Source: an uncultured Gammaproteobacteria bacterium
Lineage (GTDB): Bacteria; Pseudomonadota; Gammaproteobacteria; PS1; Pseudothioglobaceae
DNA length: 64,000 bases
Assembly: GCA_902556205.1 (NCBI GenBank)
Contig: CACDVH010000002.1
Span: forward strand, 1 to 64,000
Reading direction: 5' to 3'
The notes under the pieces are model-generated. The model was not told where the DNA came from, did no database searches, and saw only the letters and a list, made by a program, of their open reading frames with translations. Positions 37,788-56,730 of this stretch are shown piece after piece. The translations under genes and the position numbers were made by a program. The first letter of the stretch is position 1; each line of letters begins with the position of its first letter.

Positions 37788-37875
37788 GGAGGGATGGCAG
37801 AGTGGTCGATCGCGCACGCTTGGAAAGCGTGTAAACCTAACGGTTTCATGGGTTCGAATCCCATTCCCTCCACCA
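37788..37875 (+). tRNA. tRNA-Ser (anticodon GGA), CCA encoded
   Basis: An 88-nt gene. GGAGGGA pairs with TCCCTCC (37865-37871), discriminator A, encoded CCA. The anticodon stem CACGC/GCGTG closes the loop TTGGAAA with anticodon GGA, and a long variable arm (TAACCTAACGG-type region) follows as in class II tRNAs, then the GGTTCGAATCC T-arm. Its 3' end is the attachment site of the integrative element that follows. Confidence 0.95.
37856..37875 (+). repeat. attL: 20-bp direct repeat in the 3' end of tRNA-Ser
   Basis: gaatcccattccctccacca. Identical to 56711-56730; the flanking bases differ on both sides (c/t before, c/a after), so 20 bp is the exact length of the repeat. Confidence 0.93.
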
Positions 37876-37999
37876 CATATAGTTCTCACTACATCTCACT
37901 AATAATCTTAAGGTATTGCTATAAAGCCTATTTAATAGGATTTTGGCTAGATTGTATTTCTCTTAATGTTTCATAATGTCTCTTAACATCTCATTATAT

Positions 38000-38021
38000 T
38001 GTGAGTAGAATTGTGAGTAGA
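38000..38021 (+). repeat. Left arm-type repeats (two TGTGAGTAGA copies)
   Basis: Two copies of TGTGAGTAGA separated by 2 bp. The same pair, with one base different in the spacer, lies at 56634-56655 in the same orientation. Further short words (TCTCTTAA twice, CATCTCA twice) lie between the tRNA and this pair. Likely integrase or excisionase binding sites. Confidence 0.65.
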
Positions 38022-38050
38022 TATAGTTTAATCTAGTGTATACTCAAATA

Positions 38051-39259
38051 ATGCTTACTGACACTAAAGTAAGAAATTTAAAACCACAAGATAAACTTTA
38101 TCGTGTTGCTGACTCTCATGGTTTAGCTATAGAGGTTAATCCTAATGGTTCAAAATTATGGCGACATCGATTTAGATACAATAATAAAGCTACAATGATG
38201 TCTCTTGGAAGCTATCCAATGGTTTCTCTTCTTGAAGCTAGACAAAAACGAGATAGCAACAAGCAACTTCTCAGTGAGGGGGTTAATCCTGCAAGGACAC
38301 AGTCCAAGTTTGACAACACCAAACCAACATTTAAGGAGATGTTTGAACAATGGATTGAGAATAAAAGAGATGAATGGTCTTCCGGATATATTGAGGATAC
38401 ACAGCAAAGGGCAAATAACTATTTAATACCAACTATAGGTAAATTACCTATCGAAGACATAAAGTCCCCAGATATGAGGAATTTGCTCCTCAAAATACAG
38501 TCTTCAGGTAAGTTGGACATGCTTCAAAAAGTTAAAGGGATAGCTAATGGTGTTTTTAAGTATTCTGTGGGTATGGGTGTTATTTCAGTAAATCCTGTGA
38601 GAGATTTACCTAATGAGATATTTAAAAAGAAACCTGTTAAGCATTATGCCTCTATTACTGACCCTAAAGAGATTGGAATTCTTCTTGATAAACTCGAAGA
38701 ATACAATGGTAGTTATGAGGTCAATAATGCTCTTATGCTAGCTCCACACCTGTTCTTAAGGCCAAGTGAACTGACTGGACTATTGTGGAGTGAGGTCGAT
38801 TTTGATGAGAAAATCATCAGAATTGGAGAAGAGAGAATGAAAATGAAAAGAACACACCTTGTTCCTATGAGTAAACAGGTTCTTGGAATGATTCTCAAAA
38901 TAAGCAAATTTAACACTGAAAGTCTTTATGTTTTTCCTGGACCAAGAAACATAAATAAATCAATAACACCTGACTCTTTAAGACTTGCGATTAGAAGATT
39001 GGGTATTGATAAAGATACTTTTACTACTCATTCATTTAGAAGTATGGCTAGTACAAGACTTAACGAACTCAATTACAGAGCAGATGTTATAGAAATGCAA
39101 TTGGCGCATGCTGAAGGTAATAAGATTAGAGGGGCATACAATCATGCACAATATCTTCCAGAAAGAGTAAAGATCATGCAAGATTGGTCTAACTATTTAG
39201 ATAAATTACAAAACAAGACCTCTGTTTCGCCATCAGAACTTCAACAAAGTCTTTTTTAG
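38051..39259 (+). CDS. int: Tyrosine-type integrase (P4-type, arm-binding DUF4102 N-terminus)
   Basis: ~402 residues. The N-terminus MLTDTKVRNLKPQDKLYRVADSHGLAIEV with WRHRFRYNNKATMMSLGSYPMVSL is the DUF4102 arm-binding domain. The core has FLRPSELTGLLWSEVDF (first catalytic Arg), the HSFRSMAST box (His-x-x-Arg) and the final AYNHAQYL Tyr. It recombines the element into tRNA-Ser. The ATG at 38051 is chosen; TATACT stands 6 nt before it, so a leaderless transcript is possible. It points away from the tRNA, as usual for this integrase class. Confidence 0.94.
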   Translation: MLTDTKVRNLKPQDKLYRVADSHGLAIEVNPNGSKLWRHRFRYNNKATMMSLGSYPMVSLLEARQKRDSNKQLLSEGVNPARTQSKFDNTKPTFKEMFEQWIENKRDEWSSGYIEDTQQRANNYLIPTIGKLPIEDIKSPDMRNLLLKIQSSGKLDMLQKVKGIANGVFKYSVGMGVISVNPVRDLPNEIFKKKPVKHYASITDPKEIGILLDKLEEYNGSYEVNNALMLAPHLFLRPSELTGLLWSEVDFDEKIIRIGEERMKMKRTHLVPMSKQVLGMILKISKFNTESLYVFPGPRNINKSITPDSLRLAIRRLGIDKDTFTTHSFRSMASTRLNELNYRADVIEMQLAHAEGNKIRGAYNHAQYLPERVKIMQDWSNYLDKLQNKTSVSPSELQQSLF

Positions 39260-39284
39260 TGCTATTTGAGCTATAATCTAAGTA

Positions 39285-39632
39285 ATGAAAGATAAAAATG
39301 AGAATTTTAGATATTTTATTGCTGAAGACGATTTTGAATTATCTATTGCTAGAATAAATGCCCTGGGAAATCCATATCTTAAATGGCAACTAACTCAAGC
39401 TCGTAAAAATCATACAGACGAATTCGGCGAAATTATAAAAGCAGGAGATAATTATTATAAGAAATCAAGCGGACCTTCTTATAGTGATGTTGTTAAATTA
39501 TCAAGAAAATCAATGAATATATTTGCTTTTCTGTATTTTTTGGATACACCTGGCTTAAGTAATTTAGCAGATGAAGTTATTAAAAAAAGAGATGAAGAGC
39601 ACCGTAAAGCAGTTGATGGGTTGAAGCTGTAG
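39285..39632 (+). CDS. Hypothetical 115-residue protein
   Basis: A soluble, highly charged protein (many Lys, Glu, Asp) predicted mostly helical, without signal peptide, membrane segment or recognisable motif. It lies between the integrase and the SRA-HNH nuclease, 22 bp upstream of the latter, and could be its partner or an integrase accessory factor (excisionase-like size). TATAAT ends 7 nt before the ATG with no Shine-Dalgarno. I do not recognise a family. Confidence 0.6.
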   Translation: MKDKNENFRYFIAEDDFELSIARINALGNPYLKWQLTQARKNHTDEFGEIIKAGDNYYKKSSGPSYSDVVKLSRKSMNIFAFLYFLDTPGLSNLADEVIKKRDEEHRKAVDGLKL

Positions 39633-39654
39633 ACATATAGTTTAACAAGACCAG

Positions 39655-40896
39655 ATGCAACAATATTCATGGAATCAATTAGATAATGACACAATAGTTA
39701 AAAGTCTCGATTATTCTGCTTTTAGTGAGAGAAGCTCGGGAATACCCAAACAGTTTTATCCTTTTTTTCGAACCACTCATACCAGATACGATAGGGATTT
39801 GACACTAAGGTATAAGAATATTTCTTATTCTGCAAAAATTATTTGGAAAAAGCCAAATAATACTCGAGCTGTAATTAGTTGGAATCAGAATCTATCATCG
39901 TTAATGAAGTTTATTTTTCCATCTTGGGCTTCTATTAATCCTCACGATAAAGACTCTAAATTAGGTTTAGTTTTTCATAAAACTGAGAATGAGGATTCAT
40001 ATGAAATCTCTTTTAAAAGAGACAATTCTGAAATGACTTTTGGACATATTGAAGGGATAAATGAAGGTCATATATTTGCTAATAGAAACCTATTGAGATT
40101 ATCTGGCATTCATGCACCTCCAGAGGCAGGGATTTGGGGAAGGCAAGATGAAGGCTCAGCTTCTATTGTCTTGTCGGGCGGTTATGCAGATGATATTGAT
40201 GATTGGGATTACATTCTTTATACCGGTCAAGGTGGAAGAGACCCATCCAGTGGAAAACAAATCAAAGATCAGGAGTTTACCTTAGGAAATAAAGGGCTTC
40301 AGCTTAATAAAGAATACAATCATTTAGTCAGAGTAATTCGAGGTTACCAAGTGGAATATGGGCCTGATGAAGGTTATCGTTATGACGGCCTTTACTATGT
40401 GACAGGTTATGAAAGGGTTAAAGGTAAGGAGGGATTTCTTGTTTGTAGGTTTCATCTACAAAAAGAAAAAGAGATTTTATCTCCTGAAGATACAGAACAT
40501 CCAATATCACCATCTGAAAGGATTGAATATAGGGGTAATCGGCTTAAAAGAAATGTTAAATATGCTGAGCAAATTAAGGAAATGTATAACTACATGTGTC
40601 AGGTTTGTAATGTGTTTTTGAAAACTCCAACTAAAGGTTATGGTATAGCTGAAGCTGCTCATATTCAAGCAATGGGCAAACCTCATGAAGGACCTGACAC
40701 AAAAGCCAATATGATTTGTTTGTGTCCAAATCACCATGCTCAATTTGACAGGTTTTCATTCTATATCGAACCAGAAACTTTGGAGATTGTAGGACTAGAT
40801 GAATTCAAAGGAAGATCAATAAAAATCAACAGTAAACACAAAGTTAAATCTAAATACTTTGAATATCAAAAGCAGCAATATCTCAAAAGTAATTAA
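39655..40896 (+). CDS. SRA (YDG) - HNH modification-dependent restriction endonuclease
   Basis: 413 residues in three parts. Residues 1-125 are an uncharacterised beta-rich N-terminal domain. Residues ~128-275 are an SRA/YDG domain (GHIEGINEGHIFANRN, SGIHAPPEAGIWG, IVLSGGYADDIDDWDYILYT, YRYDGLYYV), which flips and reads 5-methyl- or 5-hydroxymethylcytosine. Residues ~305-385 are an HNH nuclease (CQVC...AEAAHIQ...CLCPNHHAQFD). Enzymes with SRA plus HNH (for example ScoMcrA- and TagI-type) cleave modified DNA, so this is a type IV defence nuclease. No methylase is encoded nearby, consistent with that role. Confidence 0.9.
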   Translation: MQQYSWNQLDNDTIVKSLDYSAFSERSSGIPKQFYPFFRTTHTRYDRDLTLRYKNISYSAKIIWKKPNNTRAVISWNQNLSSLMKFIFPSWASINPHDKDSKLGLVFHKTENEDSYEISFKRDNSEMTFGHIEGINEGHIFANRNLLRLSGIHAPPEAGIWGRQDEGSASIVLSGGYADDIDDWDYILYTGQGGRDPSSGKQIKDQEFTLGNKGLQLNKEYNHLVRVIRGYQVEYGPDEGYRYDGLYYVTGYERVKGKEGFLVCRFHLQKEKEILSPEDTEHPISPSERIEYRGNRLKRNVKYAEQIKEMYNYMCQVCNVFLKTPTKGYGIAEAAHIQAMGKPHEGPDTKANMICLCPNHHAQFDRFSFYIEPETLEIVGLDEFKGRSIKINSKHKVKSKYFEYQKQQYLKSN

Positions 40897-41147
40897 TAAT
40901 ATTTAAAAGTGTTACGATTGTCACTAGGGTAGAGCCCATTGTCTTTTACATCATCATTTACATAAAGATTATCATCCAAAGTGGCATTATCATTGCTATT
41001 TAAATTTTCATTAGCATTTACATTAGGTTAATAGTTGGCAAACCATTGGTTATTAATACATTTTTTTAATATATTCTTTAATAGATATAGTTCATTTTGA
41101 GATTTGATGTTATTATGTGATTTTTGTTTTTTTATTATCAATTAGTC
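40897..41147. other. AT-rich intergenic stretch before the membrane-nuclease gene
   Basis: About 250 bp with no plausible gene. It contains a 9-bp direct repeat CATTTACAT at 40955 and 41015 (60 bp apart) among other ATCAT/CATTA words. It probably holds the promoter and control region of the 41148-46573 operon; I see no clear -35/-10 pair. Confidence 0.4.
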
Positions 41148-42833
41148 TTGAGAAAATTTTTAATCAGCTCAATACTTTTATTTGGGCTTATAAATCCTGT
41201 TTTTTCTGAAATTAAAGGAATAGATCTATCTGATCGACCTGATTCATCAATATGCAGTTGGTTTGAAGTTAAATATACTCCTCAGATTTATATTGATGAA
41301 GCTCGAAAGAGAAACTTGGCTTGCGGTATTCCTTTGAATGCAAGGCAAACTGATTCTGGATGGGAGTGTTATAGCGGGTTCAGACAAAGTGGAAATAAAT
41401 GTCTAAAAATATATGCACCTCAGAATGCATATATCTCAGGCAATAATTGGTACTGCAAGCCAGGCTTTAAAAGAAGTGGTAATCAATGTATTAAGCAAAT
41501 AGTTATCCCGCAAAATGCATTTAAATCAGGAAATAGTTGGTATTGCAAGTCAGGTTATACAAAAAGTGGAAATAGCTGTATTAAAAATATAGTAATTCCT
41601 GAAAATGCATTTAAATCAGGAAATAGTTGGTATTGCAAGTCAGGTTATACAAAAAGTGGAAATAGTTGTATTAAAAATATAGTAATTCCTGAAAATGGCT
41701 ATAAGTCAGGTAACACTTGGTATTGTAATCCAGGCTATAAAAAAACTGGAAATAGTTGCGTAAAGAGTACACCTATCCCTCAAAATTCAAGTAATGACGA
41801 TATCTTAACTATATTGTTTTCAACATTGATATCAACAATATCATGGTTGATTCAGACAGTAATTTTAATAGTTTCGTTTTTATTTAATGATAAAGGGGGA
41901 GCACTAATATTTTGGTTAGTAGTTGTTTATTTTTTATATCGATCTTTTAGTAAACCTTCTTCAGTAGAAAAACGCAAAAAAATCGTCATTACAAAGGATA
42001 TGCCCAGAGTTTATCCAGAGAAAAATGTGCCACCTAAACCTAAACCAGAGCCTAAGCCTAAACCTGAGCCTAAGCCTAAACCTGAGCCTAAGCCTAAACC
42101 TGAGCCTAAGCCTAAACCTAAACCAGAGCCCAAGCCCAAGCCTAAACGCAAGTTTGTTATAAAGGAAAAGGTTGTTCCTAAACCTAAGACTTCAATAAAG
42201 AAAACTGTAAAAAATCCTGAAAAGAATGGTGATCGATATTTCCCAATTAATTCGGCTTTAAAGTCTGAAGAAACAGGTCTTGGATTTCAAGTTCTTACTT
42301 TTGAACAAGGTTCTAAAGCTTGGTTGGATTGGAGACATTCAGGTATTGGAGCTTCTGATGCTTCTACTGTGATGGGAGATAACAGATTTCAGTCACCTGA
42401 TGAGTTACTTTATCAAAAGAAAAACAAAATCAATATCGAGCCAAACGCAAAGATGAGAAAAGGCACCAAACTTGAACCAAAGGCTAGAGATCTGTATATT
42501 GAATTTACAGGAATTGAGGTGTTTCCTCTCTGTTTACAAGATAAGAAGGATCCATGGCTAATTGCGAGTATGGATGGAATTTCAAAGGATTACAAGCATA
42601 TTGTTGAAATAAAGTGCGGTGAGTCAGCGTATTGGCAAGCTTCAAAAAACATTGTTCCCGAGTATTATTATGGTCAGCTGCAACACCAAATGATGATTAC
42701 TGGCCTTAAAGAGGTTGATTATTGGTGTTATTGGCCAGGATACGAGCCTAAATTGCAAACAGTGAAAAGAGATGATGATTACATAAAATTATTGTATCAA
42801 GCAGAAAAAGCATTTATGAAGAAGTTAAGATGA
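41148..42833 (+). CDS. Membrane protein with EGF-like repeats and a C-terminal YqaJ/lambda-exonuclease domain
   Basis: ~561 residues from the TTG at 41148 (the in-frame TTG at 41124 is the alternative). MRKFLISSILLFGLINPVFS is a signal peptide or anchor. Residues ~63-214 are five ~30-residue repeats of the form GNxWYCxxGYxxSGNxCIK. Hydrophobic segments follow at ~219-246 and ~251-267, then a basic stretch and a Pro-Lys-Glu linker (~296-334, PKPE units). Residues ~379-555 are a YqaJ-type nuclease: GIGASDAS, Glu443 in KLEPKAR, Asp476 in SMDG, Glu487-x-Lys489 in EIKCG, Gln510 in QLQHQMMITG. All catalytic residues look intact. It overlaps the helicase gene by 4 bp. I know no described protein with this layout. 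Confidence 0.82.
   Translation: MRKFLISSILLFGLINPVFSEIKGIDLSDRPDSSICSWFEVKYTPQIYIDEARKRNLACGIPLNARQTDSGWECYSGFRQSGNKCLKIYAPQNAYISGNNWYCKPGFKRSGNQCIKQIVIPQNAFKSGNSWYCKSGYTKSGNSCIKNIVIPENAFKSGNSWYCKSGYTKSGNSCIKNIVIPENGYKSGNTWYCNPGYKKTGNSCVKSTPIPQNSSNDDILTILFSTLISTISWLIQTVILIVSFLFNDKGGALIFWLVVVYFLYRSFSKPSSVEKRKKIVITKDMPRVYPEKNVPPKPKPEPKPKPEPKPKPEPKPKPEPKPKPKPEPKPKPKRKFVIKEKVVPKPKTSIKKTVKNPEKNGDRYFPINSALKSEETGLGFQVLTFEQGSKAWLDWRHSGIGASDASTVMGDNRFQSPDELLYQKKNKINIEPNAKMRKGTKLEPKARDLYIEFTGIEVFPLCLQDKKDPWLIASMDGISKDYKHIVEIKCGESAYWQASKNIVPEYYYGQLQHQMMITGLKEVDYWCYWPGYEPKLQTVKRDDDYIKLLYQAEKAFMKKLR
41511..41690 (+). repeat. Tandem 90-bp repeat in the membrane-nuclease gene
   Basis: Bases 41511-41600 and 41601-41690 are nearly identical (I see one silent difference, c/t at 41576/41666, and a few in the first 15 bp). 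Each encodes one 30-residue EGF-like unit. Three more diverged units flank them. Confidence 0.85.
42031..42150 (+). repeat. Low-complexity Pro-Lys-Glu coding repeat
   Basis: Short tandem units of cctaaacctgagcctaag encode alternating KPKPEP. The linker is like the stiff Pro-Lys/Pro-Glu spacer of TonB proteins and separates the membrane part from the nuclease domain. Confidence 0.85.
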
Positions 42834-45800
42834 GTGAAGAGCAGAAATCAACTGAAAATGAAGATGTCTTAGGGAGCATTGTTAGTTCTGTAGACCTTGG
42901 TAAAGATATTCTTGAATTGCTTGAGAAAAATAAAGAGGGCTTAAAGGCAAATGAGATTGCTGATGCGCTTGAGTTTGAGGTTGATGTAAAAGGTGTTCGA
43001 CAGCTACTTTATGGTAATTTAAATGGAAAAGTTAGGCAAGATAATAGCTACAAATGGTATCTGATTTCCGATTCAGATCGATCAATAGAGATTGGTCACC
43101 AAAAGAGTGCTCCTCTCACTGATCTTGCAAGATTATGTCGTTATTATCTTGCGTGTTCCGATCAAGCAAATACGGGAGTTTCGACTTGGGCAAAAAGTAA
43201 CTTTGATGATTTAGATTATGGAGAACTTGGCTCACTACCGCTTCATACAGATGATTTACTTGCTGATGCAAATGCTCAAAGACTTTTAGGCAAAATTAGA
43301 TCAGATAGATCTAGGCTAGAGTTATTTGTAGGTTATCCGACCCATCTTAGAAAATTTACCTCTCAAAAAGGTAATGAAATATATAAAGTAGAGCCACTAT
43401 TTTTATTTCCAGTAGAGATCGATCCCAACAATAAAACCCCAATACTCGACGTTTCATATCCAGTCATTAATCCAGAAGTTGTAAAACAATTTACGAATTC
43501 TCAACAAGAATCAATTCTAAGTGAGACAGCATTGCTTGAAAGTGAGCTTGGTATTGGAGAAATAGGTGCAACTATAGATATTGACGAGCTTGTATTAAGG
43601 TTGCAAAGTATCAGGGATGATTGGCCTTGGCAAGAAAATATGGATCCCTCTGAATTAGATTCAAGTTCCTCACATTTGTCTGAAATAGATCAACCAGGAA
43701 TATACAACAAGGCTATTGTAATAATAGTTCCTAAATCGAAATACACTCAAGGTTTAGAGTCTGAATTAACCAATATTTCTAAGCTTGATATTAAAGAAGT
43801 TAAAGGAACTGCATTGGGTGGCTGGCTGGATGGAAATGATGATTCAAATCAAAAAGAATTACCAAAGAATCCAAAGCCTTTAGTAGAAGTGCTGCCAATG
43901 AATTCTGAACAGAGACAAGCTGTGAATACTTCTTTTGTTAAAGATTTAACCATTATTACTGGACCGCCAGGAACAGGTAAGTCTCAAGTTGTAACTAACC
44001 TTTTAATAAATGCTGCCTGGCAGGGAAAAAAAGTTTTATTTGCTAGTCGTAATAATAAAGCAGTTGATGTAGTTGAGACTCGAATTAACAATTTAGGACC
44101 AAGGCCAATATTGCTTCGAGTGGGTTCAAATGCTTATCAAAATAAACTTGCAGAATATCTGATTGCTTTGCTCTCTACTTCTTCAACTGAAGATGATCAG
44201 TTGGAGTTTGATGAGACTCAGATGCTGCATAAAAAGTTGCTGAAACGCTCTAATAAATTAGATGATGAAGTTGAGAAGCTGATTGAACTCAGAAACTCTG
44301 TTGATAGTCTGGAACAAGCAGCAGAAATTGTGAGAAACAAAATAGTGGATGAAGAATTATTTTTATCATTTAAGAAATTAAATACTTCAACAATTACTAC
44401 TAGTGTTAAAGCATTTTCTAAGAAAATTTCTAAGCTTGTTAAAAACGTCGAGCAAAAGGAGACATTAGAGGCTGAAATCAAAGAATTACGCTCTCAATAT
44501 AAAAATAAGATTTTTATTTCTTTTAGAGATGCTGATATTGAAATTCTAAGAGCGGATTTAGCAAAATTCATACAAATTTTTAAGCCTTTGAAAAAAGGAT
44601 TATTCTGGTTTTTAAGAAAGAATGGGCTTTTTAAAACAGCCAACAGATTGTTAAATAATCAGCATGAATTTGTTGGTAAGCTTGGGTATTCATTCCCTCA
44701 TGACTTTGTATCTGAATCAAATATTGACGACTGGCGAAGCTTAATTAATCAATTGAATACTTCAATCAATGACGCTGAAATTGTGAAGGAATATTTTGAA
44801 GATCTAGAGGCACTTAATAATTCGTCACTTTTAAAGCAAGCAAATTCATCACTAAAAGATACTTTGAAAGGAATTCATTCTCTTGGTTTAGAAGCCCCAG
44901 ACGAGATGGTAATGGATTCAAATTTAAATGATTGGAGTGCATTTGTTGATTATTTGCCGATTGCTATTGAAGAAGCCGAGAAAGTGAGTAAATACTTAAA
45001 TGCATTAAGCAAACTTCAAGGTCTAAAGAATCTAGAAGAAATTACTTTAGAGAGACAAAAGCTCTTTAAATCATTTTCATCTAATTCTGAAAAGCTTTGG
45101 AAGCTCTGGTTGAGGCTTCAACCATCAACACTTTCTAAAGAAGATCGAGCTACGCTGAGCAAATACAAAACATTATTAGATATGGTGAATGAGAGCCAGG
45201 GAGATTTAGAACCCAGTGTTCGTCGAGAATATGGCAAGATTATTCCACAAGTTTCTCATCTATTGCCGTGTTGGGCAGCGACTTCTCTTTCAGTTAAAAA
45301 TAGACTGCCATTTGAGCCAGGATTCTTTGATATAGTGGTTTTTGATGAAGCAAGCCAGTGTGATATTGCCTCAGCACTACCCTTACTTTATAGAGCAAAA
45401 ACAGCGGTTGTGATTGGTGATCCACAGCAGCTTACACACATTACGACTCTACAAAAAGGACAGGATCAAAAACTTTTAGAAAAATACGATCTTTTCTCAG
45501 ATTACATTCAGTGGGCATATTCTTACAATTCTCTATTTTCACTTGCATCTGGAATAGGTTCTAAAAACTCGTTAATCAACCTTGCAGATCATCATAGATC
45601 TCATGCAGATATTATTGAGTTTTCAAATAAAGAGTTTTATCAGGGTAGATTAAGAGTTGCTACTAGATATGATAATTTAAAGAGAATAAACAATAAAGAG
45701 CCTGGCGTTAGATGGGTTGATATTCAGGGTCAAACATATCCTGGTCAATCTGGCGGATCGATGAATCCACTTGAAGTTAAAGCTCTAGTGATTGAATTAG

Positions 45801-46573
45801 AAGACTTAGTTCTTAAAAGAGGTTATAAAGGATCTGTTGGTGTAGTTACTCCATTTGTTGCACAAGTGAGTGCAATTAGAACTGCTGTAAGCCAAAATGC
45901 AAGACTGGAAAATGAATTAGTTGGTAGAAATTTTTTGGTCAATACGGTTCATCAGTTTCAAGGAGATGAGCGTGACGTTATGTTTTTCTCACCAGTTTTA
46001 TCAAAAGGAATGAGAGCTCAAAGTATTCATTTTCTTAAAACCAATGGCAATTTATTTAATGTTGCAATTACTAGAGCAAGAGCTCAGTTAATAGTTGTGG
46101 GTGATCTGGCTCAGTGCGGCGCATCTGATGTAGACTATTTAGCAAGATTTGCAACATACAGCCAAGATCTCATTAAGAAAAATAATGATAATCAAAATAT
46201 AGAATTATCTTATGGATCTTCAAAATATCCCGAGGTGGATAATCCAGAGCAAGTCTCAAATTATGAAAGGATTTTTTACACTCAGATGTATCTAGAAGGC
46301 ATCAGAACATTGCCTCAATTTAGAGTTGAGAAATATGTACTTGATTTTGCGATAGTCGATGGCGATAGAAAACTCAATATCGAAGTTGATGGTGAAAAAT
46401 ACCACAGAAACTGGAACGGTGAATTATGCCGCAGAGACCAGATGAGAAATCAAAGAATGTATGAACTTGGCTGGGATGTAGAAAGGTTTTGGGTGTATGA
46501 GATAAGAGACGATTTAGAGTCTTGTATTAAACGGATAAAGGCCTGGCAAAACCGCTCCAAAAAACCGGCTTAA
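42830..46573 (+). CDS. UPF1-like superfamily 1 helicase with C-terminal DUF559/Vsr-like nuclease
   Basis: 1247 residues. Residues ~15-80 look like a winged-helix domain (LLEKNKEGLKANEIADALEF). The helicase has Walker A GPPGTGKS (378-385), a large charged coiled-coil insertion (~450-800), Walker B DEAS (Asp839-Glu840), GDPQQL, DHHRSH, TVHQFQGDERDVMFF and AITRARAQLIVVGD. The last ~100 residues carry a PD-(D/E)xK nuclease of the DUF559/Vsr type (Asp1172 in LDFAI, Glu1185 and Asp1187 in NIEVDGEKYH, then RRDQMRNQRMYELGWDVERFWVYEI). Related helicase-nuclease proteins occur in defence islands. The ATGA overlap with the membrane-nuclease gene argues for equal expression and a joint task. Confidence 0.88.
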   Translation: MSEEQKSTENEDVLGSIVSSVDLGKDILELLEKNKEGLKANEIADALEFEVDVKGVRQLLYGNLNGKVRQDNSYKWYLISDSDRSIEIGHQKSAPLTDLARLCRYYLACSDQANTGVSTWAKSNFDDLDYGELGSLPLHTDDLLADANAQRLLGKIRSDRSRLELFVGYPTHLRKFTSQKGNEIYKVEPLFLFPVEIDPNNKTPILDVSYPVINPEVVKQFTNSQQESILSETALLESELGIGEIGATIDIDELVLRLQSIRDDWPWQENMDPSELDSSSSHLSEIDQPGIYNKAIVIIVPKSKYTQGLESELTNISKLDIKEVKGTALGGWLDGNDDSNQKELPKNPKPLVEVLPMNSEQRQAVNTSFVKDLTIITGPPGTGKSQVVTNLLINAAWQGKKVLFASRNNKAVDVVETRINNLGPRPILLRVGSNAYQNKLAEYLIALLSTSSTEDDQLEFDETQMLHKKLLKRSNKLDDEVEKLIELRNSVDSLEQAAEIVRNKIVDEELFLSFKKLNTSTITTSVKAFSKKISKLVKNVEQKETLEAEIKELRSQYKNKIFISFRDADIEILRADLAKFIQIFKPLKKGLFWFLRKNGLFKTANRLLNNQHEFVGKLGYSFPHDFVSESNIDDWRSLINQLNTSINDAEIVKEYFEDLEALNNSSLLKQANSSLKDTLKGIHSLGLEAPDEMVMDSNLNDWSAFVDYLPIAIEEAEKVSKYLNALSKLQGLKNLEEITLERQKLFKSFSSNSEKLWKLWLRLQPSTLSKEDRATLSKYKTLLDMVNESQGDLEPSVRREYGKIIPQVSHLLPCWAATSLSVKNRLPFEPGFFDIVVFDEASQCDIASALPLLYRAKTAVVIGDPQQLTHITTLQKGQDQKLLEKYDLFSDYIQWAYSYNSLFSLASGIGSKNSLINLADHHRSHADIIEFSNKEFYQGRLRVATRYDNLKRINNKEPGVRWVDIQGQTYPGQSGGSMNPLEVKALVIELEDLVLKRGYKGSVGVVTPFVAQVSAIRTAVSQNARLENELVGRNFLVNTVHQFQGDERDVMFFSPVLSKGMRAQSIHFLKTNGNLFNVAITRARAQLIVVGDLAQCGASDVDYLARFATYSQDLIKKNNDNQNIELSYGSSKYPEVDNPEQVSNYERIFYTQMYLEGIRTLPQFRVEKYVLDFAIVDGDRKLNIEVDGEKYHRNWNGELCRRDQMRNQRMYELGWDVERFWVYEIRDDLESCIKRIKAWQNRSKKPA

Positions 46574-46592
46574 TTATATTCTAGTTTTTCAT

Positions 46593-46702
46593 TATAATAG
46601 AGTGTTATAGGGCTTTTGCATTAGTGTTTTTTAATAACTAGTCCTAGTCTTGAATTAAATATAAATAGAGGAGCGGTTAACTTGTTCGCAAGTTATTTTT
46701 TG
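46593..46702 (+). promoter_or_regulatory. Promoter, short transcript and UUCG-loop terminator ahead of alpA
   Basis: TATAAT at 46593-46598 could start a ~95-nt RNA. A hairpin AACTTG-TTCG-CAAGTT (46679-46694) with a UUCG tetraloop followed by ATTTTTTG ends it ~25 bp before the alpA start. This could be an attenuator of alpA or an independent small RNA. The -35 is weak. Confidence 0.5.
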
Positions 46703-46725
46703 TTTATCTATTTATAGGATAAAAA

Positions 46726-46926
46726 ATGCATAGATATCAGTTAGTCAAGCTTTCAGCTGTAAAAGACATCACTACCTTTAGTTCAGCAACCATATATCGT
46801 CTTATTAAAAAAGGTGAATTCCCAAAACCGATTAAACTCTCGAAGCGAAGTTCAGGTTGGTTTTTAGAAGAGATATACAGTTGGCTTGATCAAAAAAAAG
46901 AATCTAGAGACGGGGGTAAGCTATGA
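46726..46926 (+). CDS. AlpA-family helix-turn-helix regulator
   Basis: 66 residues. VKDITTFSSATIYRLIKKGEFPKPIKLSKRSSGWFLEEIYSWL is a complete AlpA/Phage_AlpA (MerR-like HTH_17) domain. AlpA-type proteins act as excisionases or activators of integrase genes in P4-like elements, which fits the tRNA-borne integrase here. It overlaps the next gene by 4 bp (ATGA). Confidence 0.92.
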   Translation: MHRYQLVKLSAVKDITTFSSATIYRLIKKGEFPKPIKLSKRSSGWFLEEIYSWLDQKKESRDGGKL

Positions 46927-47192
46927 ATCAACTCTATGATGCTCATGAAGAGCATATTAATCGAAATTCCTTCGTTTTTTACGATAGTTTTTATAAAGCC
47001 ATGAAAAACCTAAGCGATGAAGAAAAAGTCGAATATATCGATGCTATATGCTGTTATAGCCTCTATGATCAAGTTATAGAGATGGATAATAAAATTGAAG
47101 GTATGTTTGAGTTAATTAAGCCTCAAATTGATGCAAATATTAAACGTAGAAAAGATGGGGCTAAAGGAGGCAGACCTTCAAATCGGGATTGA
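46923..47192 (+). CDS. DUF6291-type mobile-element protein
   Basis: 89 residues. NSFVFYDSFYKAMKNLSDEEKVEYIDAICCYSLYDQ and the basic end KRRKDGAKGGRPSNRD resemble the short DUF6291 proteins that occur next to replication or regulatory genes of phages and integrative elements. The biochemical role is not known. Translationally coupled to alpA and convergent with the 48686 gene, whose stop abuts it. Confidence 0.7.
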   Translation: MNQLYDAHEEHINRNSFVFYDSFYKAMKNLSDEEKVEYIDAICCYSLYDQVIEMDNKIEGMFELIKPQIDANIKRRKDGAKGGRPSNRD

Positions 47193-48686
47193 CTATTTTT
47201 TTAAATCAATCAGAGTCATCATATCGACAGGATAATGATAATCGCCTAAAGTGTTAATTTCACATATTGTCTGATTTGAAATATCTTCATAGATTTTTGT
47301 GACCGAATTAGTAAGGAGAAGTTCTCCAATTTTTGCTCGTTGTTTTTGTGAACCATAACCATTAAAAATGCTGCCAAAATTTCTGTGCGTTATGAATTTT
47401 CCATCATCTGAACTGTCACCTCTAAATGCTAAGACATCATTAACGAAACTTTGTCTCATGACATCGCATATGTAGTCAGTACTCTTGTTTTTAAAAAGAT
47501 CAAATTGTCTCATATATCTGAGTGGTCTTAGAAAAATTTGGAAGTTTATTCCAGCACTATCATTCACGTGCAAACCAATATCTTTAGGCCTAAAATTCCA
47601 ATTTAATTCTTCAAGATACTCATCGATTTCCATCTCTAATTTGAGTACGCCAAAATCAAATTGATTAACAGGCTGATTAAATAAAGTTTCTACGATGCTG
47701 TTATCAATCTTTTTTGGAACTTCAAATTCAAATAACGATTTGAATTGATTGGGCTCATTTTCTGTCTCGTTTTTTTCGCTTTGTTGAGATTCTGCAATTC
47801 TCTCAAGAAGGCTTTTTTCTTCTTTTTCTTTAGTTTTTTTTGATTTAACTAAATTCTCAAGCCTGAGCACTTCATCCTTTGCCCATGTATCTCCTAATGA
47901 TGCCCACTTTTGAAGCATGACTAGTGCTTCCTGGTAATTTTCAGCATCTTCGGCACTTAATATAGAGCTAAGCTCATTTTCTATTATTAATATAAGATCA
48001 TCAAAATCACTGTTCCATTTTTTTATAGCAGATGCTTGTAATCCGAGGCTATTATTGTCTTCATAATTTGAATAAAACGCAATATTAACAATTCTTCCTT
48101 CCATTAAATATTTTAATAGTGTTGAAGTCAGTCTTGCTGTTTTAGAATACTCCCCATTAACTCTTTGCTCCTTCATCGCAAGATATGTGTATCCAAAAGT
48201 GTCTTTTTCATCAATAAAGGGTGGAAAAGGAATAAGAGCACTTATCGAATTATCAATATTCACACCTGATTGACTTGATAATTTCTCACTTTGCTCTTCT
48301 AGAGCTTCCCTAACCGAATTAAATGTTTTTTCATTGTCTATAAGTTCTTGTTTGTCATTATTGACCTGTTCCATAAAATCTTCACGACCATAGTCTTTGC
48401 CCGGAATAGTAGTAACTTGAACAAACTCCGACATTGTTGGCTCAAGTCCTGAATTAATCCTCTCAAGATCGGAAGGTAGCATGTATGCAAGTAACAGCTC
48501 TACTTCTGGAGGGTGAAGGCTATTTAAGTTATTAAAAATTGGGTTTGATGGCTCGACTGCAACCAATTCACTATAGTTCTCAGGAAAATAAAAAATCCAA
48601 CCATCCACTAGAACATTTGTCTTAGATTCAGATGCATGAGTAGATGAAAATACTAAGACAAAAAGCATTGTTAAAATTTTCTTCAT
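47193..48686 (-). CDS. Secreted protein of unknown function, 497 residues
   Basis: MKKILTMLFVLVFSSTHASES is a clear signal peptide. The mature protein has no family I recognise: an N-terminal part with many acidic residues, a Lys/Glu-rich coiled coil (~265-310), and a C-terminal part (~330-497) with RPKDIGLHVNDSAGINFQIFLRPLRYM and a Cys pair. Its ATG is 6 nt from TATAAT (48693-48698 reverse) without a Shine-Dalgarno, as for other envelope genes of the island. It is likely periplasmic or surface-exposed cargo. Confidence 0.75.
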   Translation of the reverse strand: MKKILTMLFVLVFSSTHASESKTNVLVDGWIFYFPENYSELVAVEPSNPIFNNLNSLHPPEVELLLAYMLPSDLERINSGLEPTMSEFVQVTTIPGKDYGREDFMEQVNNDKQELIDNEKTFNSVREALEEQSEKLSSQSGVNIDNSISALIPFPPFIDEKDTFGYTYLAMKEQRVNGEYSKTARLTSTLLKYLMEGRIVNIAFYSNYEDNNSLGLQASAIKKWNSDFDDLILIIENELSSILSAEDAENYQEALVMLQKWASLGDTWAKDEVLRLENLVKSKKTKEKEEKSLLERIAESQQSEKNETENEPNQFKSLFEFEVPKKIDNSIVETLFNQPVNQFDFGVLKLEMEIDEYLEELNWNFRPKDIGLHVNDSAGINFQIFLRPLRYMRQFDLFKNKSTDYICDVMRQSFVNDVLAFRGDSSDDGKFITHRNFGSIFNGYGSQKQRAKIGELLLTNSVTKIYEDISNQTICEINTLGDYHYPVDMMTLIDLKK

Positions 48687-48730
48687 GAGTTAATTATATT
48701 TCAAACTGAACTTTAATATGAAATTTATGG

Positions 48731-48943
48731 TATACTTATATTCGAACGAAGAAATTTGTTCAGGTGCTCTTTAATTTATCGGCTGTAAAGTTGGTAGCGA
48801 ACCTAAAGAGTGATTGGCCGGGTAGGCCAATAGACTAGTAGAAACTGGTATTAATGCTGCAAAGCAAATCCATATTAGACTTATGTCTAATATCTATAGC
48901 GGTCCCGCTGGTCTCCATTTTTTTTATATATATGGAGAAGTTT
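48731..48943 (+). ncRNA. Structured 5' leader of the AIPR-like gene (boxA plus hairpins)
   Basis: Starting near TATACT (48731) there is ~200 nt of non-coding leader. It holds an rrn-type boxA word TGCTCTTTAA (48765-48774), whose CTCTTTA is exactly complementary to TAAAGAG at 48804-48810; a hairpin ATTGGCC-GGGTA-GGCCAAT (48813-48831); a perfect 9-bp hairpin ATATTAGAC-TTAT-GTCTAATAT (48872-48893); a short AGCG-GTCC-CGCT stem (48898-48909); and TCTCCAT (48912-48918) pairing with ATGGAGA (48932-48938), which includes the Shine-Dalgarno. An ORF can be read through part of it (from 48854) but it would span these hairpins. Confidence 0.65.
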
Positions 48944-50344
48944 ATGAAAAACAAAAACTTAGTACTTAAAGTTGATAATCAGAGTGTTCAACATACTCGT
49001 TATCTTAATAAGATTATTGGCACAATTGATTTAAAAAATCTTGCCAAATTAATCAACGCAGTTGGCCTTGAGGCAAATCCGCGTAAATCCAAGGTTTGTA
49101 ATACAACCGACCAAATAAGAGACACATTGGAATATAACCCTGCAATGTTTAAATATAGCTCTAAAGGTCTTTTGGTTTCTTCAAGTGAATGCCATAAGCT
49201 TGAGAGAGGTCGATTAAATCTTACTTACAATAATGAAAGCATTGAAGGAATTCTTGATGGTGGGCATAACACTCTCGCTTGTGGATTATCGATTCTTGAA
49301 ATGATTGGATTTAGTGATAATAAAGTAAGCAAGATTAAGAAATGGGATGAGTTTATTGGGTTCTGGAAGGAAGTATTTACTGAGAAATCTTTTGAAAAGA
49401 TTGATCAGGCTCAGGGTGATCCTGAGAAGGATCCAGAAGCCTTTGCTCAGCTGCCTATTGAAATCATTTATCCAACTGAAGAGGGTTACGATCGCTTTGA
49501 AGAAAATATCTATTTTATTTCTGCGGCAAGAAATAACAATACTGCTTTAAGTGTTACAACTCGAAGTAATCATAAACACTACTATGATGCACTTAAAAAG
49601 GTATTAGATGAATATGTAAGTAATAAGATTACATGGAAGGATAACGAGGAGACTGGTCATAAACAACCTATCAAGTCTCAAGAGATTATTGCGCTATCCT
49701 TAATCCCTTTGATGACTCTTCAAAAAGAAGGCCTTCTTCCTGAAAAATTAGAAAAAATTAATCCTGTTTCGCTCTACAGTAGTAAAGGTAAATGCGTGCA
49801 AATTTTTGATAATTTTATTAAATTAATGAATCCTGCTAATGAGGAGGGTAGAGAGCCAACAGGCGATGAAATAACTCAAAATCTAGAATCTAATGAATTA
49901 ATAATGAGTGCATTTGAAAAAATGTTTGTTATTCCTGAGTTAGAAGATTTTATTGTTGTTAATTTTCCAAAGGCATATAACAAGACTGGTAAAAAATTTG
50001 GTAAATGTCCAAAGGTTCAGAGATACAGCTTGACTGAAAAAGGACCAGAGTTTACCAATAGAAAACAAAAGACTCAGTACTATGGAAACTCTTCTGAATA
50101 CAAGTATCCTAAGGGTTTTTATACTCCAATAGTTGCTTCACTTAGTGCACTTATGCATGTTAAGAACAATAGAGTTGAATGGAGAGTTTCAGATCCTAAA
50201 GCTTTTCTAGAAGACAACTTGGATTCGATACTAAGTAGTTATTTGAAATTTATGAGCAGTCATAATGCAGATCCACAAGTTATTGGAAAATCTGCCTATA
50301 GCTACGAAGTGATAGAAGAAGCAATTAATAAGTTATTGCAATAA
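48944..50344 (+). CDS. AIPR-like / DGQHR-related protein (putative abortive-infection protein)
   Basis: ~466 residues from the ATG at 48944, which has GGAG 6 nt upstream; the longer frame from 48854 runs through leader hairpins and is not preferred. MFKYSSKGLLVSSSECHKL followed by EGILDGGHNTLACGLSIL resembles the AIPR (abortive phage infection) core, in which an NG-Q-T or DG-x-H motif is conserved. LSVTTRSNHKHYYDALK and KSQEIIALSLIPL also fit. The match is by eye and moderate; a distantly related DGQHR-type protein is the alternative. No membrane segment. It stands alone, closed by a terminator hairpin at 50356. Confidence 0.55.
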   Translation: MKNKNLVLKVDNQSVQHTRYLNKIIGTIDLKNLAKLINAVGLEANPRKSKVCNTTDQIRDTLEYNPAMFKYSSKGLLVSSSECHKLERGRLNLTYNNESIEGILDGGHNTLACGLSILEMIGFSDNKVSKIKKWDEFIGFWKEVFTEKSFEKIDQAQGDPEKDPEAFAQLPIEIIYPTEEGYDRFEENIYFISAARNNNTALSVTTRSNHKHYYDALKKVLDEYVSNKITWKDNEETGHKQPIKSQEIIALSLIPLMTLQKEGLLPEKLEKINPVSLYSSKGKCVQIFDNFIKLMNPANEEGREPTGDEITQNLESNELIMSAFEKMFVIPELEDFIVVNFPKAYNKTGKKFGKCPKVQRYSLTEKGPEFTNRKQKTQYYGNSSEYKYPKGFYTPIVASLSALMHVKNNRVEWRVSDPKAFLEDNLDSILSSYLKFMSSHNADPQVIGKSAYSYEVIEEAINKLLQ

Positions 50345-50355
50345 ATATGCTAGAT

Positions 50356-50416
50356 ATCAGGGGGTGGGAATTACACTCCCTGATTAAATTAATACCTTAT
50401 TTATAATAAGGTTCAT
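50356..50416 (+). terminator. Two hairpins after the AIPR-like gene
   Basis: ATCAGGGGGTG (50356-50366) pairs with CACTCCCTGAT (50374-50384) with one mismatch, and CCTTATT-TAT-AATAAGG (50395-50411) follows, then TTCATTTTT. Either can end the upstream transcript. Confidence 0.75.
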
Positions 50417-50510
50417 TTTTCACCTAAAATTCATCAACAAAACACTAAACCTATATCTTTAAGCTATTGATTTATATAACAATAGATTAACTTCATAAAT
50501 ATAGGACATC

Positions 50511-52808
50511 ATGACCCGGCCCAAATCAAACCCAATATCTAAATTAATCATCTCTTCATTTTTACTTCTAGCTACAAACCTTGCAATTGCAAGTTCCAAC
50601 TCCCAAGAAAAACAATCTAATCCAGTCAACGAAGCCGAATCAGGCTCTATGCTCTTTAAGTTCGATGACGACTCCTCAATTATGCAAATTGCACTCGATA
50701 CCGAAGTGCAGATGGATATTACAGGAAACATAAACAGAGTCATTGTTGAACAGATTTTTACTAACCCTTCAGATATGTGGGCAGAAGGTGTCTATGTGTT
50801 TCCACTCCCCGAAGACTCCGCCGTTGATCGATTAAGGATGTATGTCGACGAGAGGGTGATAGAGGGGCAGATTCATGAGAAAGAAGAGGCCAAAAAGATT
50901 TATGAGAAAGCTAAGAGTGAAGGCAAAAGTGCTTCTCTAGTCGAGCAGCAAAGACCCAACATCTTTACCACCAATGTCGCCAACATTGCGCCAGGAGGTA
51001 GCATAAAGGTTGCTATCGAATACCAGCAAGCCGTCAGCATTAGTAACAACAAATATTCTGTTAGATTCCCGATGGTGGTCGGAGACCGTTACGTCCCTGG
51101 GGCTCCTGCCTATACTCCCGATGAATCATTGGGCGTCTCTTTTAATACAACTGAGGTTAGTGACGCCTCAAAGATTACCCCAATTAGCGAGAACCACGTT
51201 CGTGAACTCATTGACGAGAATTATGAAACCGATTTGCCAGTCAGGATTAGTATTAATCTGAACGCAGGCTTTGACGTTGCCTCATTGAATTCGACTTATC
51301 ACAAGGTCAACACCGAGAGTCTAAATCAGACAACTAAATACATTAGCTTGGCTGAGGCGGCACAGCTTGATCGTGACTTTGAGCTAACCTGGTCAGCAAA
51401 CATGTCTCACGAGCCCGAGGTGGCTTTGTTTGCCCAAGAAAACGATAACAATATCTATCTCTTGATGATGGCTATTCCACCAAAAAATGACGTATTTAAG
51501 AAGAGTGACAGGGCTCGTGAGTTGATTTTTATTATTGATTCCTCAGGTTCTATGAGCGGAGGCTCAATGAGACAAGCCAAAGATTCGCTCTACGAGGCCT
51601 TAGAGAGATTGAAGCCCTCAGACAGGTTTAATATCATTGATTTTGATAGTGGTTTCGAGCCACTCTTTGATTCAGCTAAGATGGCAAACCAATCTCACAT
51701 GAATGAAGCCAAGAGATTTATTAGGAAGATTGATGCTGACGGAGGAACAGAGATGTTCAAGCCTATTGACTTTGCTCTCAAATCAAGAGATTCAGAATCA
51801 AGTAAATTCCTGCGACAAATTGTATTTATAACCGATGGTCAGTCTGGAAATGAAGAGGCTATATTTAATAACGTTAGCTACAACATAAGGAACGATAGAT
51901 TTTTCACCATTGGTATTGGTTCAGCTCCAAACTCTTATTTGTTAACTAAACTCGCAGATTTTGGAAGGGGTGCGTTTACCTACATAGGTAGCCAGAAAGA
52001 GGTTAGACAGAAAATGAATAGACTCTTTGAAATGTTAGAGTCACCCGCACTCACCGACATAAAGGTCAACTTTCCACCCGAAATCACCTCTGAACTTGCC
52101 AGAGACGTGATTTATGACCTCTATGCTGGTGAGACCATAACCGCAGCTTTTAAGATGAATGCACTCCCTAATTCACTTGAAATATCCGGCAAAACCATAG
52201 ATGGAGTGTTTAATAAAACCATCACCATAGATAAACTCAGCAATACTTCGGGGGTAGACACTCTATGGGCGCGTCGCAAAATCGACCGGTTGACCGATTT
52301 TTATAACAACACTTACGCGCAATCAAACAAAGATTCTGCACGAAGAGATATTACAAATTTAGCTTTAGATTACCATTTAGTTTCTCGATTTACCTCTCTT
52401 GTTGCAGTTGATATTACTCCATCAAGACCTGAACATGAAGAGCTTATCACTCAGGCCATCATCACGAAGGCGAAGGCAGATGGATTAGAGAAGGAGATTG
52501 AGCTAAATGAGGACGGTCAGCTTCAAAACAGAGATGAGCTAATGCTGGCTTTAATGAGAGCTTTGCCAGAAGACAAGGTCAAAAATTCTAGTGCTCAAAA
52601 ACAGTTCGAGATGGTGATGAAAAGTGCTAACGTTCCTCCAAGTGCATTTGCCTCGATGAAGGTACCAGAGAAGATAGCGGCTCTAGTGGATACCCAAGTC
52701 AAAATGATTCCTTCCTCGCAGACAGCAACATACTCTGAGCTGTTGATGTATATTGGGCTCTCGTTGCTCCTGATCGCCGCCATACTTCGTCGAAGGTTAG
52801 TGATATGA
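50511..52808 (+). CDS. VIT and vWA domain protein, marine proteobacterial sortase target
   Basis: 765 residues. A signal anchor (LIISSFLLLATNLAIA) is followed by a VIT domain (residues ~60-190: EQIFTNPSDMWAEGVYVFPLPEDSAVDRLRM) and a von Willebrand A domain (residues ~335-510) with the MIDAS motif DSSGSMSGGS. The C-terminus has SSQTATYSE, a hydrophobic helix and RRR, the layout of a sorting signal. This is the TIGR03788 type of protein encoded with class GN sortase. It overlaps the sortase gene by 4 bp. The DNA here and in the sortase gene is visibly richer in G+C than its neighbours. Confidence 0.9.
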   Translation: MTRPKSNPISKLIISSFLLLATNLAIASSNSQEKQSNPVNEAESGSMLFKFDDDSSIMQIALDTEVQMDITGNINRVIVEQIFTNPSDMWAEGVYVFPLPEDSAVDRLRMYVDERVIEGQIHEKEEAKKIYEKAKSEGKSASLVEQQRPNIFTTNVANIAPGGSIKVAIEYQQAVSISNNKYSVRFPMVVGDRYVPGAPAYTPDESLGVSFNTTEVSDASKITPISENHVRELIDENYETDLPVRISINLNAGFDVASLNSTYHKVNTESLNQTTKYISLAEAAQLDRDFELTWSANMSHEPEVALFAQENDNNIYLLMMAIPPKNDVFKKSDRARELIFIIDSSGSMSGGSMRQAKDSLYEALERLKPSDRFNIIDFDSGFEPLFDSAKMANQSHMNEAKRFIRKIDADGGTEMFKPIDFALKSRDSESSKFLRQIVFITDGQSGNEEAIFNNVSYNIRNDRFFTIGIGSAPNSYLLTKLADFGRGAFTYIGSQKEVRQKMNRLFEMLESPALTDIKVNFPPEITSELARDVIYDLYAGETITAAFKMNALPNSLEISGKTIDGVFNKTITIDKLSNTSGVDTLWARRKIDRLTDFYNNTYAQSNKDSARRDITNLALDYHLVSRFTSLVAVDITPSRPEHEELITQAIITKAKADGLEKEIELNEDGQLQNRDELMLALMRALPEDKVKNSSAQKQFEMVMKSANVPPSAFASMKVPEKIAALVDTQVKMIPSSQTATYSELLMYIGLSLLLIAAILRRRLVI

Positions 52809-53359
52809 AGAGACTGATACTACTAATAGTTTTTTTAGGGCTGAGTTTTTTCGCATACGGGGCTTATATACCCGCAAAAGCAGTCTTAGCTCAGTATTTG
52901 ATTAATGATGCCTGGAATGACTCATTAAGCTCAGGAGAGAGTCGCAAGCCCTGGAAATGGGCCGATATGCATCCGGTCATGAAGCTGAGCTCTGATAAAC
53001 ACAACCAAGAGCTCATTGTCTTGTCAGGAGACAAGGGCAACTCTCTCGCCTTTGCTCCAGGATACAATCTAAATAGTTACATGCCGAATCAGGGTGGTAC
53101 AACGGTTATTTCTGCTCACAGAGACACCCACTTTGAGTTTTTAGAGAACATATCAGTCAGTGACGTTTTCGAGCTGACGGATCGAAACAATGAAACGACC
53201 AGTTACGAGGTCAGTGACATCAAGATTATTGATGCAACGAAACAAGATATAGCTGTCCATTCAGACCGAGCCGAACTCAAATTGATTACGTGCTATCCCT
53301 TTGATGCTTTGGTTGCTAGAGGGCCGTTGAGATATGTCGTCACCGCAAAAATGATATGA
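52805..53359 (+). CDS. Class GN sortase
   Basis: 184 residues with an N-terminal membrane anchor (LILLIVFLGLSFFAYGAYI). Catalytic His in ISAHRDTHFEFL, Cys in LITCYPF (the TLxTC motif as LITC) and Arg in GPLRYVV are present. This type of sortase in marine Gram-negative bacteria processes the VIT/vWA protein encoded just before it. It presumably acts in the periplasm. The stop overlaps a 40-codon ORF. Confidence 0.93.
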   Translation: MKRLILLIVFLGLSFFAYGAYIPAKAVLAQYLINDAWNDSLSSGESRKPWKWADMHPVMKLSSDKHNQELIVLSGDKGNSLAFAPGYNLNSYMPNQGGTTVISAHRDTHFEFLENISVSDVFELTDRNNETTSYEVSDIKIIDATKQDIAVHSDRAELKLITCYPFDALVARGPLRYVVTAKMI

Positions 53360-53478
53360 AGATAAATATAACTCCAATTCGAAAAGACTCCAAGTTTATA
53401 AGCAACAAAATCCTATTAATGTCGGTCGTCTTTCATTTGGTGCTATTTGTTTTGGTGAGTTTTATGGAGTTGGTTTAA
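53356..53478 (+). CDS. Small membrane protein, 40 residues
   Basis: ATG at 53356 overlaps the sortase stop (ATGA). The product MKINITPIRKDSKFISNKIL is followed by the hydrophobic LMSVVFHLVLFVLVSFMELV, so it is a basic head plus one membrane helix. Its coupling to the sortase suggests a real gene, but there is no homologue known to me and no separate Shine-Dalgarno. Confidence 0.5.
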   Translation: MKINITPIRKDSKFISNKILLMSVVFHLVLFVLVSFMELV

Positions 53479-53490
53479 TAAGGAGAAAAA

Positions 53491-53745: not shown

Positions 53746-53840
53746 TTAAATTAATTAAGGTTTGGTTTACCTAATGAACTGGGCATTTGTTCCTATTGTC
53801 GCCCTAGGATTTCCCTTAAAGCACTAAAACGGAGGAAGTT

Positions 53841-55947: not shown

Positions 55948-55951
55948 TAGA

Positions 55952-56389: not shown

Positions 56390-56413
56390 AATAAATACAA
56401 ATAGTTAAGTTTA

Positions 56414-56467: not shown

Positions 56468-56473
56468 GCTTTA

Positions 56474-56511: not shown

Positions 56512-56633
56512 GATGTGTGAGTGAGGGTGTATATAACTATCTCCGATGTCGAGAGGGGCTCCCCCCATGCCTTCAAAGTCTAAATAAATATGCCAAGGAT
56601 AGTTATTTATTTCCTATTAAATAACTACTTATT

Positions 56634-56710: not shown

Positions 56711-56730
56711 GAATCCCATTCCCTCCACCA
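56711..56730 (+). repeat. attR: 20-bp repeat of the tRNA-Ser 3' end
   Basis: Exact copy of 37856-37875 without the rest of the tRNA, so it marks the distal end of the integrated element. Confidence 0.93.

Follow-up and report, generated by a model that had tools for sequence, protein, structure and literature searches.

A YqaJ exonuclease with a predicted membrane anchor overlaps a CnuH-like helicase-nuclease gene in a Pseudothioglobaceae integrative element: a candidate defence module

Introduction

Why should a mobile element carry, as overlapping genes, a phage-type exonuclease that appears to be tied to the membrane and a large helicase fused to a second nuclease? The question is raised by a 64,000-nucleotide stretch of DNA from an uncultured gammaproteobacterium of the family Pseudothioglobaceae (assembly GCA_902556205.1, contig CACDVH010000002.1, positions 1 to 64,000), the whole of which we refer to as the window. 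Within it, an integrative element at a tRNA-Ser gene encodes the two proteins, here called gene A and gene B:

41124..42833, + strand: gene A, in which an exported ectodomain of repeats is followed by membrane helices, a basic linker and a YqaJ exonuclease
42830..46573, + strand: gene B, 1247 aa, a CnuH-like superfamily 1 (SF1) helicase fused to a Vsr/DUF559 nuclease

Gene A starts with a TTG codon at either 41124 or 41148 and ends at 42833 (residue numbers below count from 41148); as an initial annotation of this DNA had noted, the two open reading frames (ORFs) overlap by 4 bp, sharing an ATGA at 42830-42833. That annotation also proposed the pair as a candidate new defence unit; novelty holds for the architecture of gene A and for the pairing, neither of which we found described, but not for gene B, which is a member of an existing family. 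What is new is therefore the architecture of gene A and its association with gene B, both built from known parts. We tentatively favour, at a little under even confidence, the reading that the pair may be an element-borne defence module in which a membrane-anchored 5'-3' exonuclease has been added to a defence helicase-nuclease, in a manner resembling the SNIPE system.

Results

The two genes form part of the cargo of an 18.9 kb element (37856-56730), bounded by a 20-bp exact direct repeat that corresponds to the 3' end of the tRNA-Ser gene. The features that define the element are as follows:

37788..37875, + strand: tRNA-Ser(GGA), the integration site of the element (ARAGORN; its last 20 bases are attL)
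37856..37875, + strand: attL, GAATCCCATTCCCTCCACCA (exact direct repeat with 56711-56730; the identical 20-mer bounds the element in G025)
56711..56730, + strand: attR (20-bp exact repeat of attL)
38036..39259, + strand: tyrosine integrase of the element (Pfam Arm-DNA-bind_3, Phage_int_M and Phage_integrase)
46726..46926, + strand: AlpA-like regulator, directly downstream of the pair (Phage_AlpA, E=1e-15)

In a sister species (G020) the site is empty, with the sequence that follows attR directly abutting an intact tRNA, and together with the repeats this bears out the mobile island suggested previously. A second species of the same genus (G025) carries a 26.3-kb element at the same tRNA, bounded by the same 20-mer, in which genes A and B are again present, adjacent and still overlapping. 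Only six genes are common to both elements, namely the integrase (63% identical between them), A, B, AlpA (49%), a sortase target protein (75%) and a class GN sortase (85%), the remaining cargo being different; identity is 50-67% for the YqaJ gene and 47-64% for the helicase. Because MetG, next to the site on the chromosome, shows 98% identity in this comparison and the shared element genes only 47-85%, the two elements look to have been separately acquired or to have long diverged. The pair has been retained in these two diverged elements while most other cargo has turned over, so that it is more than an accident of one strain; a chance fusion or single-strain artefact is ruled out by the same architecture and overlap in G025.

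The distribution of the pair is narrow. It occurs in two of the 83 genomes of the family, among which gene A was never encountered without gene B. When a single genome of each species was scanned, 80 other genome loci with homologues of gene B were recovered, none of which has a YqaJ gene as a neighbour, and no YqaJ gene lies beside either of two helicase genes found on viral contigs (L183 and L184). A general system of many defence islands is thereby ruled out, and the repeated co-occurrence in unrelated islands that had been put forward as support for the defence proposal was not observed. Matches in phage records are limited to the YqaJ domain, at ~30%, and plasmids yielded helicase homologues only, none reaching 80% query coverage. 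Among viral contigs, a full-length alignment of gene A picked up linker peptides and one weak match, a domain-only scan from two close YqaJ sequences gave one weak match, and a broader YqaJ alignment recovered 80 viral loci, none with a convincing membrane anchor.

Gene A combines an exported region of exchangeable appearance with a constant enzyme. Beyond a signal-like N-terminus, the following parts can be delimited:

41325..41765, + strand: Cys-rich beta-hairpin repeats, residues 60-206 (AlphaFold model, beta pairs 65-206)
41796..41951, + strand: two predicted membrane helices, residues 217-245 and 249-268 (prediction and AlphaFold model)
41952..42263, + strand: disordered Lys/Pro/Glu linker (low predicted local distance difference test score, pLDDT; no secondary structure)
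42264..42830, + strand: YqaJ/lambda-exonuclease domain (PF09588, TIGR03033; fold; invariant catalytic residues)

Assignment of the C-terminal domain to the YqaJ/lambda-exonuclease family, as predicted by the initial annotation, is confirmed by profile cut-offs, active-site residues and fold. PF09588 matches with E=4e-25 and 89 bits (cut-off 22) and TIGR03033 with E=5e-36 and 124 bits (cut-off 68); the domain is modelled at a pLDDT of ~97, and its best Foldseek matches are LHK-Exo (3sz4/3syy, TM-score to target 0.77/0.76), followed by lambda Exo (0.65-0.67; 3slp 0.67). The catalytic residues that had looked intact in the initial annotation, Glu443, Asp476, Glu487, Lys489 and Gln510, are invariant in all 22 YqaJ proteins aligned. 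Comparison of the domain between the window and G025 gave proportions of nonsynonymous and synonymous differences of pN 0.17 and pS 0.74 and a corresponding dN of 0.19 with dS near saturation; the domain is under purifying selection. Gene A thus shares catalytic domain, fold and active site with the phage YqaJ/RecE-like exonucleases (lambda Exo, LHK-Exo); however, the phage forms are mostly 200-290 aa and lack a membrane anchor, whereas in gene A the exonuclease makes up the C-terminal third of a membrane protein. A convincing anchor was found in none of 82 viral YqaJ ORFs, two of which have marginal hydrophobic stretches.

The repeats of the ectodomain score as EGF_MSP1_1, but in the AlphaFold model they form small beta-hairpins strung in a chain, and several proteins of the genus contain them too, so that the earlier label 'EGF-like' is only a loose one. 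In these other proteins the repeats stand upstream of different C-terminal parts, including a trypsin-like protease in G014 (L057 6796-8661), a short C-terminal tail in G005 (L056 5209-6060), and a membrane helix with a Cys-containing domain in G018 (L028 1174-1887). The N-terminal module of gene A in the window resembles those of G017 and G018, and that of the G025 protein is similar to the DUF4189-like module found in G014 and G005, while the portion comprising membrane segment, linker and YqaJ domain is conserved between the two (56% overall, 73% for YqaJ); on these comparisons, the exported part of gene A appears to be exchangeable and the enzyme constant. The linker of the G025 protein is likewise basic and has a different sequence, with KRKKIVITKD conserved.

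Two observations on relatives and neighbours of gene A may be added here. In G005, an integrase and a YagK/YfjJ-type protein are encoded close to the repeat copy, which suggests that the repeat module moves with mobile elements. In addition, a phage-like phrog_11717 protein is encoded upstream of the YqaJ gene in G025 (L051 14217-14933) and resembles, by eye, a single-strand annealing protein; if it is one, a recombination origin of the YqaJ domain would be favoured.

Gene B, by comparison, belongs to a widespread family. Its AAA_11/AAA_12 and MTES_1575/DUF559 matches are above the Pfam cut-offs, and the solved folds nearest to its model are those of SETX (senataxin), IGHMBP2, UPF1 and DNA2, in agreement with the UPF1-like helicase and DUF559/Vsr-like nuclease proposed at the outset. 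Its principal features are:

42887..43084, + strand: winged-helix-like N-terminal region, residues ~20-85 (predicted from the family alignment pattern; second half modelled)
44189..45193, + strand: long helical coiled-coil-like insertion after Walker A, residues ~454-788 (AlphaFold, near-continuous helices)
46274..46540, + strand: Vsr/DUF559 (MTES_1575) nuclease domain (PF18741 at 41.5 bits, cut-off 38.2; PF04480 above cut-off)

The helical insertion sits between Walker A and Walker B in the model, and Lys384, Asp1172, Glu1185, Asp1187 and H1192 are invariant across 29 homologues of gene B. This arrangement recalls the CnuH proteins of CoCoNuT systems, which are predicted type IV restriction systems and whose type III-B CnuH combines a winged helix, an OB fold, a helical insertion after Walker A and a fused Vsr nuclease (PMC11090510). 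Gene B shares with CnuH the UPF1-like SF1 helicase, the insertion after Walker A, the winged-helix region and the fused Vsr-like nuclease, and is 27-28% identical to it over its length, both being of the same family; it differs in its neighbourhood, where CnuB/McrB and CnuC/McrC genes are absent and a YqaJ membrane protein is encoded in their place.

The 80 loci with homologues span many phyla, and the identity of gene B to most aligned rows is 37-58% over the full length. In the upper-scoring group CnuB/CnuC genes occur in none of 49 loci, whereas most of the lower-scoring group have them. In the tree, the helicases of the window and G025 form a two-row clade (support 100) inside a stand-alone clade (43 rows, support 99), separate from a CoCoNuT III-B clade (23 rows, support 99). 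Type III-B CoCoNuT membership of gene B is thus ruled out both by its neighbourhood, since the element has no CnuB/CnuC, and by the tree. By these sequence relationships gene B is not new and is placed in a widespread, mostly stand-alone CnuH-like helicase-Vsr clade adjoining the CoCoNuT III-B CnuH. Since this clade is large, mostly stand-alone and distributed over many phyla, gene A is an optional and lineage-specific addition to gene B. Our analysis delimits this clade, which extends over many phyla and viral contigs and borders the CoCoNuT systems. A literature search, with subscription papers mostly outside its scope, retrieved neither a paper on the clade nor a YqaJ-helicase membrane defence system.

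Further known systems were compared with the pair. The best PADLOC match of gene B is MkoC of type II Mokosh (E=6e-61), and both are large SF1 helicase-nuclease fusions; however, MkoC carries a phospholipase D (PLD) nuclease (PMC10013915), for which gene B has no Pfam match, its own nuclease being MTES_1575/DUF559. NCBIfam models of Hhe and ProA match the helicase and nuclease part of gene B, with scores that stay far below the equivalog cut-offs (218 vs 1500 bits for ProA, 118 vs 2000 for Hhe). For gene A, the closest parallel is SNIPE (PMC13190303). This nuclease is bound to the membrane, varies in its N-terminal region and attacks phage DNA as it is injected, while the anchor keeps it off the chromosome. 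Its anchor is a single pass with the N-terminus outside and the nuclease in the cytoplasm; for gene A, one helix is predicted in the G025 protein and two in that of the window. Gene A is likewise a predicted membrane-tethered nuclease with a variable N-terminal part, a conserved nuclease domain and a proposed action at DNA entry, but it has a lambda-type exonuclease in place of GIY-YIG, a large exported repeat ectodomain and an overlapping helicase-nuclease partner; neither DUF4041 nor GIY-YIG, which define SNIPE, gave a Pfam match in gene A.

Several relatives of gene B are recorded here as individual observations. In G088, a stand-alone CnuH-like helicase (L052) belongs to a dense defence island whose genes, judged by inspection, include HsdR-like, reverse-transcriptase, DarTG-like and DUF262-like ones. 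The viral contigs L183 and L184 carry stand-alone CnuH-like helicase-Vsr genes, with, by eye, a Fic-like protein beside the former and a serine recombinase beside the latter. G150 encodes a type III-B CoCoNuT-like operon (L053 1113-10355) composed of a CnuH-Vsr helicase, a coiled-coil protein, a coiled-coil AAA protein and a DUF2357 protein.

Discussion

How might a defence module of this kind operate? We infer joint action of A and B, a YqaJ domain on the cytoplasmic side of the membrane and incoming DNA as the substrate. Gene B would load on invading nucleic acid, along which its UPF1-like motor would move and which its Vsr domain would cut. Gene A, as a 5'-3' lambda-type exonuclease, would be tied to the inner membrane through its exported, exchangeable ectodomain and long basic linker, a tether that could place the exonuclease at the point of DNA entry and off the nucleoid, while the ectodomain may sense or dock to something at the envelope. 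Lambda-type exonucleases require a free double-strand end, which could be supplied by linear entering DNA or by a Vsr cut; gene A would then digest ends arriving with phage or element DNA, or those made by gene B. Counted in favour of a role in defence are the co-retention of the pair, the sister clade of CoCoNuT helicases, the SRA-HNH nuclease and AIPR-like gene in the window element (described below), the SNIPE precedent, and the restriction-type neighbours of gene B's relatives, which, in a survey of the stand-alone clade without a background control, include restriction enzymes of type I, IIG and ISP as well as GmrSD and AbiEii-like ATPases; the neighbours seen by inspection in G088 are counted here too.

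Several points weigh against this proposal. In addition to the uncontrolled nature of the neighbour survey, the pair is so far limited to a single genus and a single attachment site; in almost every lineage gene B works by itself, so that cooperation with A is not required; the predicted target of the CoCoNuT relatives is RNA rather than DNA; and the two helices predicted in the window protein would place the YqaJ domain outside the cytoplasm and away from gene B. We consider doubtful a more specific version of the proposal, namely a two-gene entry-blocking system in which an inner-membrane lambda-type exonuclease, with an exchangeable exported repeat domain recognising an envelope or phage component, hands DNA to or receives ends from the CnuH-like helicase-nuclease. 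If entry blocking were its function, it would represent a second solution, with unrelated nuclease parts, to the recently described cutting of phage DNA during injection, and a phage-type recombination exonuclease would have been recruited as a membrane-anchored weapon. To our knowledge, there would also be no earlier case of a YqaJ exonuclease tethered to the membrane for defence, nor of a membrane partner for any helicase-nuclease of the CnuH-like stand-alone clade.

The alternatives differ chiefly in whether A and B cooperate, and where the exonuclease resides. That gene B has no partner on viral contigs or in most rows of its clade would equally be expected if it were a self-sufficient defence helicase-nuclease. 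Gene A would then be a separate, co-transcribed cargo with a role of its own at the envelope, such as that of an anti-phage exonuclease anchored in the membrane and acting independently. Repeat-bearing proteins without YqaJ elsewhere in the genus suggest that the exported module is a general cassette, again consistent with independence; yet the pair has been kept together, ordered and overlapping in both diverged elements despite the turnover of cargo, and gene A is never without gene B in the family, so that we hold independent action to be somewhat unlikely. Topology bears on a further possibility, in which the YqaJ domain faces the periplasm or the outside. There it would break down DNA that is extracellular or coming in, as a nutrient source, as a barrier to transformation or by clipping it in the periplasm during phage entry. 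In the window protein, simple counting of the two helices that follow the exported region would put the domain outside; the Lys/Pro/Glu linker is similar to the one in periplasm-spanning TonB; and a mycoplasma YqaJ nuclease has been proposed to aid nutrient acquisition (PMC12115388). The G025 protein, however, has a single predicted helix, the counterpart of the second one only in the window, and the same counting, itself a matter of prediction in both cases, makes its YqaJ domain cytoplasmic. This single helix and the strongly basic stretch (KRKKIVITK) directly after the last helix in both proteins are the arguments that favour a cytoplasmic side; in addition, there is no clear reason to couple a periplasmic exonuclease with an ATP-driven cytoplasmic helicase, and we regard an external location as distinctly unlikely.

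The position of A and B between the integrase and AlpA, in the core shared by both elements, raises the question of whether they serve the element itself, with a RecE-like exonuclease and a helicase acting in its recombination, excision or replication; recombination exonucleases of phages are typically of the YqaJ kind (phrog_434). Such an exonuclease has no need of export, repeats or a membrane tether, however, and none of the 82 viral YqaJ relatives has a convincing anchor; the window element yielded no annealing protein, and gene B's clade adjoins restriction genes, making a service to the element quite improbable. The idea that gene A arose by chance fusion or is decaying, and has no function, could appeal to its presence in only two species, but is largely refuted by the purifying selection on YqaJ, the intact active site and the same architecture in two diverged copies, and we accord it almost no probability.

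Additional features of the element

The rest of the element includes the following genes:

39655..40896, + strand: SRA-HNH protein, a type IV, modification-dependent nuclease (SAD_SRA E=4e-41, HNH_2 E=3e-11)
48854..50344, + strand: AIPR-like protein, marginal (PF10592, 25.1 bits vs cut-off 25)
50511..52808, + strand: marine proteobacterial sortase target protein (TIGR03788, 692 bits, cut-off 552)
52805..53359, + strand: class GN sortase (TIGR03784, 200 bits, cut-off 158)

The initial annotation had placed the pair beside a type IV nuclease and an AIPR-like gene, of which the former is real and the latter only a marginal match; comparison of the two elements found neither gene in that of G025. 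A scan of promoters and terminators showed no excess over shuffled sequences. Homologues of the sortase and its target also occur in G007 and G014, the copy in G014 adjoining the trypsin-like protease with the repeat ectodomain. On the opposite strand, 47193-48686 encodes a 497-aa protein that is probably exported and has no convincing family match, and an exported protein encoded at 55021-55947 joins a surface-adhesin E domain to a TonB-like C-terminal domain.

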